Below are positions 1,410-5,780 of a stretch of 5,796 nt of DNA, one piece after another (the stretch's first letter is position 1; every line of letters starts with the position of its first letter). The notes beneath the pieces were generated by a model that did no database searches, was not told the origin of the DNA, and saw nothing but the letters and a program-made list of their open reading frames with translations. The DNA comes from an uncultured Eubacteriales bacterium. GTDB taxonomy: Bacteria > Bacillota_A > Clostridia > Christensenellales > Aristaeellaceae. The position numbers and the translations under genes are program-made. The stretch lies in the NCBI GenBank assembly GCA_902775835.1, contig CACYNZ010000239.1, positions 1-5,796 of the forward strand, read 5' to 3'.

Positions 1410-2189
1410 ATGTACGAATCCATTCTCAACAGCATGATTCAGGCTGCCCGGGCCGGCGGCGCGCTCATTCTCGCAGCCCACGACCATTCCGCACACTGGA
1501 AGGAAGGGCACTTCAATTTTGCCACGGACACGGATCTCAAGGTTCAGCAGAACATCCAGGAAATGCTCGCGTCCGACTTTCCTAACGTCCAGTTCTTCGC
1601 CGAAGAGCAGGAAAACCGGCCGCTCTCCGATGTAGCCGCATTCGTGGTGGATCCCATCGACGGGACCATCAATTTTGCCCGCGGCAGACGCGCTTCCGTG
1701 GTTTCCATCGCCTATCTTGAAAAGCAGCAGCCTGTGTGCGCCGTGGTATACCAGCCGTACTCAGATGAGTGCTTCACCGCCATTGCGGGCCGGGGCGCCT
1801 TCCTGAACGGCAGTCCCATCCATACCGCGGATACCCCGCTTTCACGGGCTGTGGTGGCTTTCGGCACTTCACCTTATGATCCGGAGCTCTGCCGGGACTC
1901 CATGCAGATCGCCGCGGACTTCATGAAGGAATGCGGGGACCTGCGAAGGGTCGGTGCCGCTGCACTGGACCTGTGCGATGTGGCCTGCGGCAGATCGGAT
2001 GTGTTTTTCGAGCTTCGGCTTCGTCCCTGGGATGTGGCAGCCGGCGCTCTGATCGTGAAGGAAGCCGGCGGAATCTATGCTTCCATCGGCCTGGACGCCC
2101 CGGTCTTTTCCCGCAGCGCAGGGGCCTTCGCCTGCTGTCCTTCCTGCAGCGGCGCCATGGCCGTCATTCAGAAAACACTGGACAGATAA
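1410..2189 (+). CDS. Inositol monophosphatase-family phosphatase
   Basis: A 259-residue protein, the usual length for this Mg-dependent, Li-sensitive-type phosphatase superfamily (inositol monophosphatase, fructose-1,6-bisphosphatase, 3'-nucleotidase). The metal site is complete: the acidic pair E65-E66, the signature DPIDGTINF at 81-89, and WD at 207-208 within RPWDVAAGALIVKEAGG. The start at 1410 is supported by AAAAAGGAG at 1392-1400, 9 bases upstream, and because the family N-terminus (amphipathic helix, AARAGGALIL) begins here. The frame is open upstream to 828, but that extension is antisense to the ATPase fragment and has no family resemblance. Several members hydrolyse inositol phosphates, histidinol phosphate or PAP; substrate cannot be assigned from motifs. 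The C-terminus carries an unusual cysteine cluster (ACCPSC, residues 241-246). No convincing terminator follows, so some transcripts may run into scfA. Confidence 0.92.
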   Translation: MYESILNSMIQAARAGGALILAAHDHSAHWKEGHFNFATDTDLKVQQNIQEMLASDFPNVQFFAEEQENRPLSDVAAFVVDPIDGTINFARGRRASVVSIAYLEKQQPVCAVVYQPYSDECFTAIAGRGAFLNGSPIHTADTPLSRAVVAFGTSPYDPELCRDSMQIAADFMKECGDLRRVGAAALDLCDVACGRSDVFFELRLRPWDVAAGALIVKEAGGIYASIGLDAPVFSRSAGAFACCPSCSGAMAVIQKTLDR

Positions 2190-2212
2190 CCGGCGCGCTT
2201 TCGCGTCTTTCC

Positions 2213-2241
2213 TTGACTTCACTCTGGGGCTATGCTATACT
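2213..2241 (+). promoter_or_regulatory. Strong promoter of the SCIFF operon, with extended -10
   Basis: TTGACT (2213-2218) and TATACT (2236-2241) are 17 bases apart, and a TG dinucleotide one base before the -10 (2233-2234) makes it an extended -10 element. Transcription would begin near 2248, leaving about 52 bases before the scfA start. The promoter begins only 24 bases after the phosphatase stop codon. Confidence 0.75.
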
Positions 2242-2299
2242 CCGCATGTTAACGGGGCGGCTTATGCCTTCCCGGAATCCTCAGATGGGAGATGGGATT

Positions 2300-2446
2300 A
2301 TGGAAAGAATCAAGACCCTGAACACCCGTGATCTGTGCGAGAGCGCCAAGAACGGCGGTTGCGGCGAGTGCCAGACTTCCTGCCAGAGCGCATGCAAGAC
2401 CAGCTGCGGTGTGGCAAACCAGCAGTGTGAAAATACTGCCAAGTAA
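2300..2446 (+). CDS. scfA: SCIFF six-cysteine ranthipeptide precursor
   Basis: A 48-residue RiPP precursor. The leader MERIKTLNTRDL and the core GGCGECQTSCQSACKTSC closely follow the conserved SCIFF pattern, and the maturase gene lies directly downstream. Start: GGGAG at 2287-2291, 8 bases before ATG. Cysteines are at 21, 24, 28, 32, 36 and 43, the expected six, plus an extra C13 in the leader. In studied SCIFF peptides, as I recall, the maturase links Cys32 to Thr37; here residue 37 is Gly (codon GGT at 2408-2410), giving CGVANQQC where CTVANQ is usual. T26 and T34 remain. The cross-link may therefore use another residue, form on the glycine alpha-carbon, or be lost. The peptide acts in the cytoplasm or after export; its biological role in Clostridia is still unsettled. 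The gene is short enough to be missed by automatic callers. Confidence 0.97.
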   Translation: MERIKTLNTRDLCESAKNGGCGECQTSCQSACKTSCGVANQQCENTAK

Positions 2447-2453
2447 AGCAGAG

Positions 2454-2482
2454 AAAGCAGCTGCCTGAGGCAGCGCTTTTTC
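2454..2482 (+). terminator. Intercistronic terminator/attenuator between scfA and scfB
   Basis: The stem GCTGCC/GGCAGC (2460-2465 and 2469-2474) with loop TGA is extended by AAAGC/GCTTT (2454-2458 and 2475-2479) around one bulged A, followed by a T-rich tract (TTTTTCTTTCT, from 2477). Placed in the 62-base gap after the precursor stop, it should end a share of transcripts, giving much more precursor than maturase, or protect the 3' end of the scfA message. An outer GAGAAAG/CTTTCTC pair (2451-2457 and 2482-2488) could lengthen the structure. Confidence 0.7.
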
Positions 2483-2508
2483 TTTCTCAACGAATCAAAG
2501 GAGCATGC

Positions 2509-3882
2509 ATGGTACATCAGTTCAAACTCAATGGGTATAACATCTGTGTGGATACCTGTTCCGGTTCTATTCACGAAGTGGATGACGTGGCCTATGACAT
2601 CATTGCCATGTATCCGGATCATACGCCCGAGGAAATCGTGGAGACCATTCTCCGCACCTATCCCGACCGTGAAGACGTCACCCGTGAAGAAATCCTCGAG
2701 TGCATCGAAGATGTCCGGAGTCTCGTGAAGGCCGGAAAGCTGTATGCCGAGGATCATTTTTCCTCGCTCGCAGGCCGGCTCAAGGAAAAGTCCGGAAATG
2801 TGGTCAAGGCTCTGTGCCTGCATGTAGCACATACCTGCAATCTGAACTGTTCCTACTGCTTTGCCAGTCAGGGCCGCTTTCACGGAGAACGCGCGCTCAT
2901 GAGCCTGGACGTGGGCAAGCGGGCCCTGGACTTTCTTGTGGAGAATTCCGGCACGCGCAAGCATCTTGAGGTGGACTTTTTCGGAGGCGAACCTCTGATG
3001 AACTGGGACGTGGTCAAGCAGCTCGTGGCCTACGCCCGCTCCCTGGAAAAGACCACCGGAAAGGTGTTCCGCTTTACCCTTACCACCAACGGCATGCTCA
3101 TTGATGACGATGTCATTGAGTTCAGCAACCGGGAAATGAACAATGTGGTGCTCTCCCTGGACGGCCGCAGAGAAATTCATGACGCCCTGCGCGTGGATTA
3201 TGCCGGGAACGGTAGTTATGACCGGATTGTCCCCAAGTTCCAGGAACTCGTGCGCAGGCGCAAGGGTCAGTATTATATGCGTGGCACGTTTACGCACCGG
3301 AATCCGGATTTTACCAAGGACCTGTTCCATATGGCGGATCTCGGGTTCACCGAGCTGTCCATGGAGCCCGTGGTCTGCGCCGATGACGATCCCGCGGCCC
3401 TCACCGAGTCGGATATCGAGATTGTCAAGGAGCAGTACGAGATTCTGGCCAAGGACATGCTCCGGAGAAAAGCGGAGGGACATCCCATCACCTTCTATCA
3501 TTACATGCTTGACCTGGAAGGCGGTCCCTGCATATACAAGCGGCTCAGCGGCTGCGGCAGCGGAACCGAATACATGGCGGTCACGCCCTGGGGCGATCTG
3601 TATCCCTGCCACCAGTTCGTAGGCGACGAGAACTATAAGCTGGGCGATATCTGGAATGGCGTTACCAACACAGACCTCCGGGAATCCTTCCGTGCATGCA
3701 ACGCCTGCAGCCGTGAAGAGTGTGCGGACTGCTGGGCCCGCCTCTACTGCTCCGGCGGATGTGCAGCCAATGCCTACCATGCCAGCGGCAGCATTACGGG
3801 CATCTATCCCAAGGGCTGCGAGCTTTTCCGCAAGCGCATGGAATGCGCCATCATGATGAAGGTGGCAGAAACACATATGTAA
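2509..3882 (+). CDS. scfB: Radical SAM/SPASM SCIFF peptide maturase (thioether-forming)
   Basis: A 457-residue enzyme, the usual size for SCIFF maturases such as CteB. Residues 1 to about 85 form a PqqD-like peptide-recognition domain (VHQFKLNGYNICVDTCSGSI, then VDDVAYDII) that binds the precursor leader. The radical SAM cluster motif is C110-NLN-C114-SY-C117, with GGEP at 159-162 for SAM binding. The C-terminal SPASM part supplies ten cysteines for two auxiliary iron-sulfur clusters: C341, C349, C367, C397, C400, C405, C408, C414, C418 and C437. In the family, SAM is cleaved to a 5'-deoxyadenosyl radical that abstracts hydrogen from the precursor, and a cysteine thiolate closes a thioether ring. 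The start at 2509 has AAAGGAG at 2497-2503, 5 bases upstream; an ATG at 2505 is out of frame. All expected cluster ligands are present, so the enzyme looks intact although its substrate lacks the usual Thr37. Confidence 0.97.
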   Translation: MVHQFKLNGYNICVDTCSGSIHEVDDVAYDIIAMYPDHTPEEIVETILRTYPDREDVTREEILECIEDVRSLVKAGKLYAEDHFSSLAGRLKEKSGNVVKALCLHVAHTCNLNCSYCFASQGRFHGERALMSLDVGKRALDFLVENSGTRKHLEVDFFGGEPLMNWDVVKQLVAYARSLEKTTGKVFRFTLTTNGMLIDDDVIEFSNREMNNVVLSLDGRREIHDALRVDYAGNGSYDRIVPKFQELVRRRKGQYYMRGTFTHRNPDFTKDLFHMADLGFTELSMEPVVCADDDPAALTESDIEIVKEQYEILAKDMLRRKAEGHPITFYHYMLDLEGGPCIYKRLSGCGSGTEYMAVTPWGDLYPCHQFVGDENYKLGDIWNGVTNTDLRESFRACNACSREECADCWARLYCSGGCAANAYHASGSITGIYPKGCELFRKRMECAIMMKVAETHM

Positions 3883-3887
3883 TCTCC

Positions 3888-3918
3888 GGGACGGCAGACC
3901 CTGTCTGCTGTCCCTTTT
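3888..3918 (+). terminator. Rho-independent terminator of the scfA-scfB operon
   Basis: GGGACGGCAGAC (3888-3899) pairs with GTCTGCTGTCCC (3903-3914), a 12-pair stem containing one G-U pair, with a CCT loop and then TTTT at 3915-3918 and a further T-rich stretch. It begins 6 bases after the scfB stop codon. Confidence 0.88.
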
Positions 3919-3954
3919 CCTTTCGGACAGACAGTTTCCGGAAATCCGGGCAGT

Positions 3955-3988
3955 AAAAACGGCTGCTGCAGTTGACCTGCAGCAGCCG
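3955..3988 (-). terminator. Rho-independent terminator of the prs-GNAT operon
   Basis: The perfect 12-pair stem CGGCTGCTGCAG (3960-3971) with CTGCAGCAGCCG (3977-3988) and a 5-base loop is followed, reading the minus strand, by TTTTT (complement of 3955-3959). It lies about 60 bases past the GNAT stop. Together with the plus-strand terminator it insulates the two convergent operons; the 165-base gap 3883-4047 holds little else. Confidence 0.88.
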
Positions 3989-4047
3989 CTGTGCTTCAAA
4001 TGGATAAGCCGTTATTCTGTTCTTCCCTGCAGGCACGGCCTGCGTTT

Positions 4048-4557
4048 TCAGGCATCCTGCCTGTACTGGTAGCGGACCACTTCAAATTCATGTCCGAGCC
4101 TCAGGATACTCCGGATTTCATGAAGGCACCGGAATCCGAGGGTTTCAAACAGAAAGCGCCCGGAAAGATTATGCCGCAGCAGCCAGATTTCTTCCTGCTG
4201 CATGCCCATCTTCTGCAGCTCTTCCACAGCCCAGAGCACCATCTGACGCTTCATTTCAGGCGTCAGGTCCTGAACCCAGCCTACATCGGTGATCAGACCG
4301 ACCCTGCTTTCCTTACTTTCCGGGCCGTACACGACATATCCTGCCAGCCCGTCACCGGAAGGAATCACGGAAATGCAGCGCTTTTCCAAAAGCCATTTGT
4401 CCACCTGACCGTCGGCATACCTGCGCATTTCCGCTTCCTGCAGATTGGCCTCCGGAAGAAATCCACGGTATGTCTCTCTGGCGTAATTCTGCTTGAGTCT
4501 TACGAGCGTCTCACGTTCATGTGAGAGATAGGGCCTCATCTGCACTGTCTTCGTCAT
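4048..4557 (-). CDS. GNAT-like acetyltransferase-fold protein with an atypical acetyl-CoA loop
   Basis: A 169-residue protein, a usual GNAT length. Residues 60-110 (strand RCISVIPSGDGLAGYVVYG, then RVGLITDVGWVQDLTP and helix EMKRQMVLWAVEELQKMGM) fit the central GNAT strands and the helix after the CoA loop. EEIWLLRHNLSGRFLFETLGF at 122-142 matches the late motif with the Asn and the terminal LGF that follows it. The Q/R-x-x-G-x-G/A pyrophosphate loop normally found between strand and helix is not visible; DLTPEMKRQM (97-106) stands in its place, so CoA binding may be altered or the activity lost. The ATG lies 2 bases after the prs stop codon with no clear ribosome site of its own, so translation is probably coupled to prs. 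Substrate is unknown. This family call rests on the overall pattern. Confidence 0.65.
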   Translation of the reverse strand: MTKTVQMRPYLSHERETLVRLKQNYARETYRGFLPEANLQEAEMRRYADGQVDKWLLEKRCISVIPSGDGLAGYVVYGPESKESRVGLITDVGWVQDLTPEMKRQMVLWAVEELQKMGMQQEEIWLLRHNLSGRFLFETLGFRCLHEIRSILRLGHEFEVVRYQYRQDA

Positions 4558-4559
4558 GC

Positions 4560-5780
4560 TTATACCAGTCGGATACCAGCATCAAGCTGTTCCTGATTGT
4601 ACTTGTTCAGCAGCCGGTGAATCCTGGCGTAGGGATTCAGCAGTCCGGACAGGGAACGATCATGGTTCAGGGTTGCAATGATATAGGAGATATACTTGCT
4701 CATGTCCGCTTCCACAAACCAGGGAGCTTCGCGGAGCTCAGGCCTGCGGTAGGTAAGGTTGGTGGAGATTACACGGTCGATAATCCCCTCTTCGTATGCT
4801 TTGTTATACTCATCGATGCCGTCGGTGAACAGGGCAAAGGTAGCTGCGGCAAAGATGCGCTTTGCATGGCGCTTCTTCAGCTCACGCGCCAGCTCAATCA
4901 CGGATTCGCCGCTGGAGATGATGTCGTCCGCCACGAACACGTCCTTGCCTTCCACGCTGTCGCCCAGATACTCATGGGCAATGATGGGGTTTCTGCCGTT
5001 GACAATGCGCGTATAGTCACGGCGCTTGTAGAACAGGCCCATGTCCAGTTCCAGGACGGACGCATAGAAGATGTTGCGGTCAATTGCGCCTTCATCCGGA
5101 GAAACAATCATCAGGTGTTCCTTGTCGATCTGAAGCGTCTTGTCCTTGCGCAGCAGCGCCTTCAGGATCTGATAGGAGGGCATGACGGAATCAAATCCGC
5201 CGCAGGGAATGGCATTCTGGACACGCGGATCATGTGCGTCAAAGGTGATGATGTTGCTGACACCCATGCGCTCCAGTTCCTGGAGCATCATGGCGCAGTC
5301 CAGACTTTCGCGGGAAGAGCGCCTGTGCTGTCTTCCTTCGTACAGCATCGGCATAATGACATTGATGCGCTTTGCCTTCCCGTTCATTGCCGCGATCAGC
5401 CGCCGGAGATCAGCGTAATGATCATCCGGGCTCATGGGTACGTCCTGTCCATACATTTTATAGGTGCAGTTATAGGCGCCGACATCGCAGAGAATGTACA
5501 TGTCATAGCCGCGTACGCTCTCCTTGATCATGCCCTTGCCTTCGCCGTTGCCGAAACGGGGGCAGATATTCTTTACGAGAAAGTCCTGTCTTGCCGCGCC
5601 TGGCGTCGTCGCCATGTCTCCTGGTTCTGTCGTCTCCTCTGAATGATCACGCCATTTGATGAGCCATCTGTTGATCTTTTCACCAAGTTCTTCCGTTCCC
5701 CGCATGGAGATCAGTCCAAGCGGTCCAACGGGGTAGGTCAGAAAACTGTCTCGATTCCAGGTGCTCACAAAGTCACTCAT
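4560..5780 (-). CDS. prs: Ribose-phosphate pyrophosphokinase (PRPP synthetase), long clostridial form
   Basis: A 406-residue protein, longer than the classical ~315-residue enzyme and matching the ~390-residue form of Lachnospiraceae-type Clostridia. It makes PRPP from ribose 5-phosphate and ATP for purine, pyrimidine, histidine and NAD synthesis in the cytoplasm. Landmarks: PVGPLGLI at 17-24; a charged linker at about 45-65 with little similarity to the short enzymes; MSPDDHYADLRRLIAA at 116-131; the ATP-site segment EGRQHRRSSRESLD at 148-161; FDAHDPRVQNAIP at 180-192; the catalytic flexible-loop region YKRRDYTRIVNGRNP at 251-265; and the PRPP-binding loop ADDIISSGES at 284-293, where classical enzymes have DDMIDTAGT. 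The start at 5780 has AGAGG 8 bases upstream (5789-5793). The promoter is outside the window. It is the first gene of a two-gene unit with the GNAT-like gene. The divergent active-site loops are a family trait and not a sign of decay. Confidence 0.9.
   Translation of the reverse strand: MSDFVSTWNRDSFLTYPVGPLGLISMRGTEELGEKINRWLIKWRDHSEETTEPGDMATTPGAARQDFLVKNICPRFGNGEGKGMIKESVRGYDMYILCDVGAYNCTYKMYGQDVPMSPDDHYADLRRLIAAMNGKAKRINVIMPMLYEGRQHRRSSRESLDCAMMLQELERMGVSNIITFDAHDPRVQNAIPCGGFDSVMPSYQILKALLRKDKTLQIDKEHLMIVSPDEGAIDRNIFYASVLELDMGLFYKRRDYTRIVNGRNPIIAHEYLGDSVEGKDVFVADDIISSGESVIELARELKKRHAKRIFAAATFALFTDGIDEYNKAYEEGIIDRVISTNLTYRRPELREAPWFVEADMSKYISYIIATLNHDRSLSGLLNPYARIHRLLNKYNQEQLDAGIRLV

Follow-up and report, generated by a model that had tools for sequence, protein, structure and literature searches.

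Ranthipeptides of the TIGR03973 (SCIFF) family are described as ubiquitous to Clostridia in an excerpt of a rumen isolate survey (PMC13289728), and according to an excerpt of a methods paper (PMC5300114), clear ScfA homologues all seem to be equivalent in function. Quorum sensing is among the SCIFF roles listed in an excerpt of one review (PMC8326336 or PMC8172795).

The closest described systems are thermocellin (CteA/CteB of C. thermocellum) and Tte1186a/Tte1186, each a SCIFF precursor with a SCIFF maturase. According to excerpts of two reviews (PMC8326336, PMC8172795), Tte1186a and CteA were first assigned a Cys32-Thr37 ring from in vitro work (Bruender 2016, Grove 2017), whereas Hudson et al. 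2019, who co-expressed CteA and CteB in E. coli, found Cys32-Thr34 via the gamma-carbon; one of the two reviews calls this discrepancy unclear and in want of clarification. The same excerpts report that CteB binds the leader, and in one of them threonine carrying deuterium on its alpha and beta carbons, a label that distinguishes the gamma-carbon, is reported for CteA. A further source (PMC11002830, excerpt) gives thermocellin a Cys-Thr gamma-carbon link, with the residue number unnamed in that excerpt. A more distant ranthipeptide with a related maturase is freyrasin (PapA/PapB), which has Cys-X3-Asp motifs and six beta-carbon links to Asp (PMC8326336, PMC8172795, PMC11002830, excerpts).

A SCIFF locus with glycine at residue 37

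The window is the whole stretch of 5,796 nucleotides analysed here, from an uncultured Eubacteriales bacterium (contig CACYNZ010000239.1). Its SCIFF locus has these features:

2300..2446, + strand: SCIFF precursor, 48 residues, cysteines at 13, 21, 24, 28, 32, 36 and 43; TIGR03973 81.2 bits (curated cut-off 50), Pfam SCIFF (PF13165) 81.9 bits (cut-off 27)
2393..2401, + strand: codons TGC AAG ACC for Cys32-Lys33-Thr34, with the ring donor and acceptor reported for CteA (PMC8326336, PMC8172795, excerpts)
2408..2410, + strand: Gly37 codon GGT
2509..3882, + strand: SCIFF maturase (radical SAM/SPASM), 457 residues, CxxxCxxC at C110, C114 and C117; TIGR03974 734.9 bits (cut-off 425)

Both family scores of the precursor are above their cut-offs in profile searches, so the open reading frame at 2300-2446 is no chance frame, and the first-pass annotation was right to call it a SCIFF precursor. 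Six of its cysteines (21, 24, 28, 32, 36 and 43) fall within about 45 residues, and the maturase adjoins it, 62 bases downstream. A search of solved structures with the precursor gave one irrelevant match (E 0.69). Re-reading the codons agreed with the annotation's TGC GGT GTG at 2405-2413: C36 is TGC (2405-2407), G37 is GGT (2408-2410) and V38 is GTG (2411-2413).

The maturase, which the same annotation had called intact, is indeed an open frame with its CxxxCxxC motif and a high family score. It also scores above the cut-offs for the radical SAM domain (PF04055, 59.4 bits against 29.5) and the SPASM domain (PF13186, 22.0 bits against 21.5). Residues 1-454 align with the solved chain 5wgg_A (E 4.5e-156; match labelled radical SAM domain protein), which we take to be CteB. 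In this alignment, 5wgg_A has Asp beside the first motif cysteine, whereas the window maturase has Thr109.

Like CteA and Tte1186a, the window precursor has both Cys32 and Thr34, the donor and acceptor of the CteA-reported pair (PMC8326336, PMC8172795, excerpts). By the reported numbering those two peptides have Thr37, the acceptor in the older Cys32-Thr37 assignment, whereas the window precursor has Gly37. The likeness to freyrasin is looser: the window maturase scores 265.8 bits against NF047865, below the cut-off of 340, and the precursor core is without Asp.

Gly37 is standard in one branch of the family

A protein search found Gly37 in 120/120 homologues (the best 120 of 5306 over threshold), all with Lys-Thr-Ser (KTS) at 33-35. 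Gly37 was likewise found in 78 of 80 genome loci, these being the best 80 maturase matches of at least 592 loci encoding a relative. This does not support the first-pass annotation's view of the peptide as an exception. The other two loci (L030, L078) have a Gly-clade maturase, but neither the 800-base stretch upstream of it nor a pattern search of the locus showed a SCIFF precursor; a divergent one could have been missed.

We also considered and rejected a single-base sequencing error at codon 37: turning any ACN codon into GGT takes at least two base changes, which a single error would not produce, and the best 120 homologues all share Gly37.

Three of the 78 Gly37 loci are from named strains not marked as MAGs: Oscillibacter sp. 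ER4 (L009) and O. valericigenes An860 (L031) and An890 (L041). These members of the Gly37 branch of TIGR03973 resemble the window in precursor length (45-48 residues), core cysteines, the CQSACKTSCGVANQ core, leader Cys13 and a downstream maturase; some leader and tail residues differ.

The homologue and best-maturase sets lean to near relatives, so we added draws of genomes spread evenly around the L001 genome. TIGR03973 was matched in 322/391 genomes of the first draw, 101/118 of a class draw and 123/149 of a phylum draw (122 over the cut-off), and in 0/14 control genomes. From the phylum draw, 120 places were fetched; G001 (Gly) and G034 (Thr) were already in the set, and G526, below the cut-off, was left out. 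Residue 37 in these 120 was Thr in 117, Gly in 2 and Ser in 1. The class draw, for 80 of its 90 places outside the earlier sets, gave Thr in 60 and Gly in 20, and the 30 best-scoring loci of the 391-genome draw gave 27 and 3.

Together, the 78 near relatives, the 30 loci with the best scores and 199 loci from the draws make a set of 307 precursors with Thr37 in 204, Gly37 in 102 and Ser37 in one. Because this set mixes differently chosen loci, 102/307 is not a frequency, and Gly37 frequencies were taken from the phylum and class draws. Across the phylum Gly37 is seldom seen, but it is common within the class and the norm among relatives close to the window. In itself it is nothing new in the family, being standard in one branch.

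The first-pass annotation had looked, as evidence against its own reading, to a family alignment with Gly37 in many members of known cross-link. Its first part was borne out, with Gly in 102/307 precursors of a set rich in near relatives, all in one clade. For its second part, no Gly37 peptide with a mapped ring turned up in the open-licence literature, where a residue is not directly searchable, making this a weak absence.

Fixed residues of the precursor core

Cys24, Cys28, Gln29, Ser30, Ala31, Lys33, Thr34, Ser35, Asn40 and Cys43 were each present in 307/307 precursors, and Cys32 in 306. Residue 36 was Cys in 300, Ile in 4 and Leu in 3. KTS was found in 311/311 loci when a double precursor (L237, outside the 307-row table) and three repeats of other genomes in the set (L081-L083, excluded from the 307-set and the tree) were included. 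Two choices of method bear on these counts. Where a locus had several pattern matches, a match was retained if its residue 34 was Thr or Ser; before that filter, KTS was found by pattern in 191 of 200 fetched places and by eye in the other 9, and it was present throughout the unfiltered lists of near-relative and further loci. The 307-row table was anchored on A-C/S-K-T-S, and a row without the anchor would have halted it.

The invariant block includes Thr34 but not residue 37. Invariance fails to single out Thr34, because Lys33, Ser35 and Ser30 are equally fixed, and the block may be kept for binding. A natural clade is without Thr37, whereas every row examined has Thr34, so Thr37 cannot be the acceptor throughout the family; among those rows, the alignment excludes it as a family-wide need.

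The leader also differs between the two groups, with Cys13 in 86/103 Gly37 precursors vs 2/204 Thr37 precursors. With this Gly37-clade leader cysteine added to the six of the core, the window peptide has seven.

Two relatives have unusual precursors. L166, which branches basally in the Gly clade, has serine at both 32 and 37 and one more Cys towards its C-terminus, with a maturase of 459 residues; it is without the reported donor Cys32, and an assembly error is possible. L237 has a 95-residue open frame that includes two SCIFF precursor units, each with Gly37.

One change on the maturase tree

Of 313 loci, 284 had a maturase match, from which we dropped six outside 400-560 residues, three repeats and one identical row. 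The remaining 274 plus the window gave a tree of 275 rows, 272 of them with a Thr or Gly state. On the FastTree phylogeny of all 275 maturases, these states need one change, at a branch with support of 99. A quick IQ-TREE run on a 70-row subset also needed one change, with support of 94 when the Ser37 row was included and 99 when it was not. The window is within the Gly clade of this unrooted maturase tree, nearest to L001.

Gly37 is best read as the marker of one old clade, not as the loss of an essential acceptor. The new ranthipeptide subclass proposed in the first-pass annotation is not supported: Gly37 is standard in a clade separated by a single change on the tree. The tree is unrooted, so it does not give the direction of that change; from its narrower spread, our guess is that Gly is the derived state.

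We defined a marker column as one where at least 95% of the Gly clade has one residue and at most 5% of the other clade has the same residue. Five maturase columns qualified: 4, 109, 328, 332 and 440. Residue 109, which directly precedes C110 of the CxxxCxxC motif, is Thr in 100/103 Gly37 rows and Asp in 145/169 Thr37 rows; the exceptions are three Thr37 rows with Thr109 and three Gly37 rows without it. Residue 332 is Tyr in 103/103 Gly37 rows and Phe in 161/169 Thr37 rows. Co-change of the maturase with residue 37 is no proof of co-adaptation, because it is a single shared event. On sequence, the marker columns would leave room for an altered ring in the Gly37 clade.

Which ring does the window peptide carry?

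We consider it likely that in the window locus a SCIFF precursor of standard type (ScfA) is paired with its maturase (ScfB), both belonging to the Clostridia clade marked by Gly37, and that the product has a Cys32-Thr34 gamma-carbon ring as in CteA. Judged by its sequence, it is best read as an ordinary, intact SCIFF/ranthipeptide member from gut-type Clostridia. The leader would be bound by the N-terminal recognition domain of the maturase, which would link the Cys32 sulphur to the Thr34 gamma-carbon, as reported for CteA with CteB in E. coli. By analogy, the ring is probably Cys32-Thr34: we infer it from the presence and conservation of both residues. A link to Thr34 was one option listed in the first-pass annotation, and it agrees with the CteA report (PMC8326336, PMC8172795, excerpts). 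The Cys32-Thr37 ring which that annotation gave does exist as a published in vitro assignment, but an older one, Cys32-Thr34 having been reported since (same excerpts). Against the preferred reading is the narrow choice at residue 37, where Thr, Gly and one Ser are the only states in 307 precursors. Thr is kept there in 117/120 loci of the phylum draw, so residue 37 probably has some role in those peptides.

A rival reading is a ring that differs by clade: maturases of the Thr37 type would make Cys32-Thr37, or this ring as well as Cys32-Thr34, and those of the Gly37 type would link to Thr34, Ser35 or another residue. We think this unlikely. The in vitro work that gave Cys32-Thr37 argues for it, as does the tracking of residue 37 by maturase residue 109, but that co-change counts as one event, not as independent evidence, and has three exceptions on each side. 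By a rough estimate, it is unsurprising that one of five marker columns in 457 positions falls near the motif, and in CteA, a peptide of the Thr37 type, Hudson et al. 2019 placed the ring at Thr34 (PMC8326336, PMC8172795, excerpts). We are similarly doubtful of a coupled change in the Gly37 clade, in which the active site of the maturase shifted (Asp109 to Thr by the cluster motif and Phe332 to Tyr) as Thr37 was lost, giving this clade a ring position or a second modification unlike that of the Thr37 branch.

Readings that take the ring away from a threonine altogether fare worse. That the locus yields no thioether, its precursor being decayed or repurposed, seems very improbable to us: Thr37 is absent here and the relative L166 is without Cys32, but both genes are open and high-scoring, and the core cysteines and invariant block are kept. 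We give even less credence to Gly37 as a sactipeptide-like acceptor via its alpha-carbon, which the first-pass annotation had offered as an option. Its one attraction is that Gly occupies the place of a once-reported acceptor; nothing in the sequence evidence supports it, Thr34 is present, and the maturase family is reported for non-alpha links (PMC8326336, PMC8172795, PMC11002830, excerpts).

Signals and genes around the locus

Three regulatory-type signals flank or separate the two genes:

2213..2241, + strand: promoter-like site, TTGACT-17-TATACT, second hexamer preceded by TG (consensus scan, 10/12 matches; weak)
2450..2483, + strand: hairpin in the precursor-maturase gap with a T-rich tract in its 3' arm, terminator- or attenuator-like
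3888..3914, + strand: terminator-like hairpin 3' of the maturase, 12 pairs, T-rich tail

The consensus scan saw 2 promoter-like sites in 2150-4050 vs 0.9 expected. The hairpin in the gap folds at -21.3 kcal/mol (z -3.13; 1/200 shuffles as good), and a terminator scan matched at 2460-2474, one of 6 terminator-like sites in the region vs 1.3 expected. A leaky stop between the genes would yield precursor in excess of enzyme.

Upstream of the precursor is an inositol-monophosphatase-family gene (1410-2189, + strand; PF00459, 180.2 bits) with no match among the fetched loci. Further upstream is a shortened AAA/SMC-type ATPase gene (905-1268, - strand), matched in 1/8 near genomes. Its similarity to a 547-residue frame in the L001 genome (L314) breaks off near position 912, roughly 119 residues away from its ATG, and an assembly join or rearrangement near that point of the window is likely. 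The stretch 3-900, AT-rich in its middle (GC as low as 0.37), includes a - strand cupin/AraC-binding-like gene that scores under the Pfam cut-offs and, at 828, a start resembling that of a signal peptide. It has weak matches in 6/8 near genomes and none in the L001 genome, and may not belong with the remaining contig.

Downstream of the maturase, the gene at 4048-4557 (- strand) had no Pfam or NCBIfam match at 0.001, and a PRPP-synthetase-like gene follows at 4560-5780 (- strand; NF005299, 562.8 bits). This order is also found 3' of the maturase in L003, L017 and L019, and in L045 at a contig end; L001 has the PRPP gene (91%) with no match to the 4048-4557 gene. A mobile origin gained no support within the searches made: there was no plasmid match by DNA, and 0/20 pattern matches in viral contigs had a maturase relative.

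Implications for the SCIFF family

Gly37 members bear on the published conflict between Cys32-Thr37 and Cys32-Thr34, and they are good natural substrates for addressing it. The family also offers two natural maturase types for probing the roles of residues 109 and 332.
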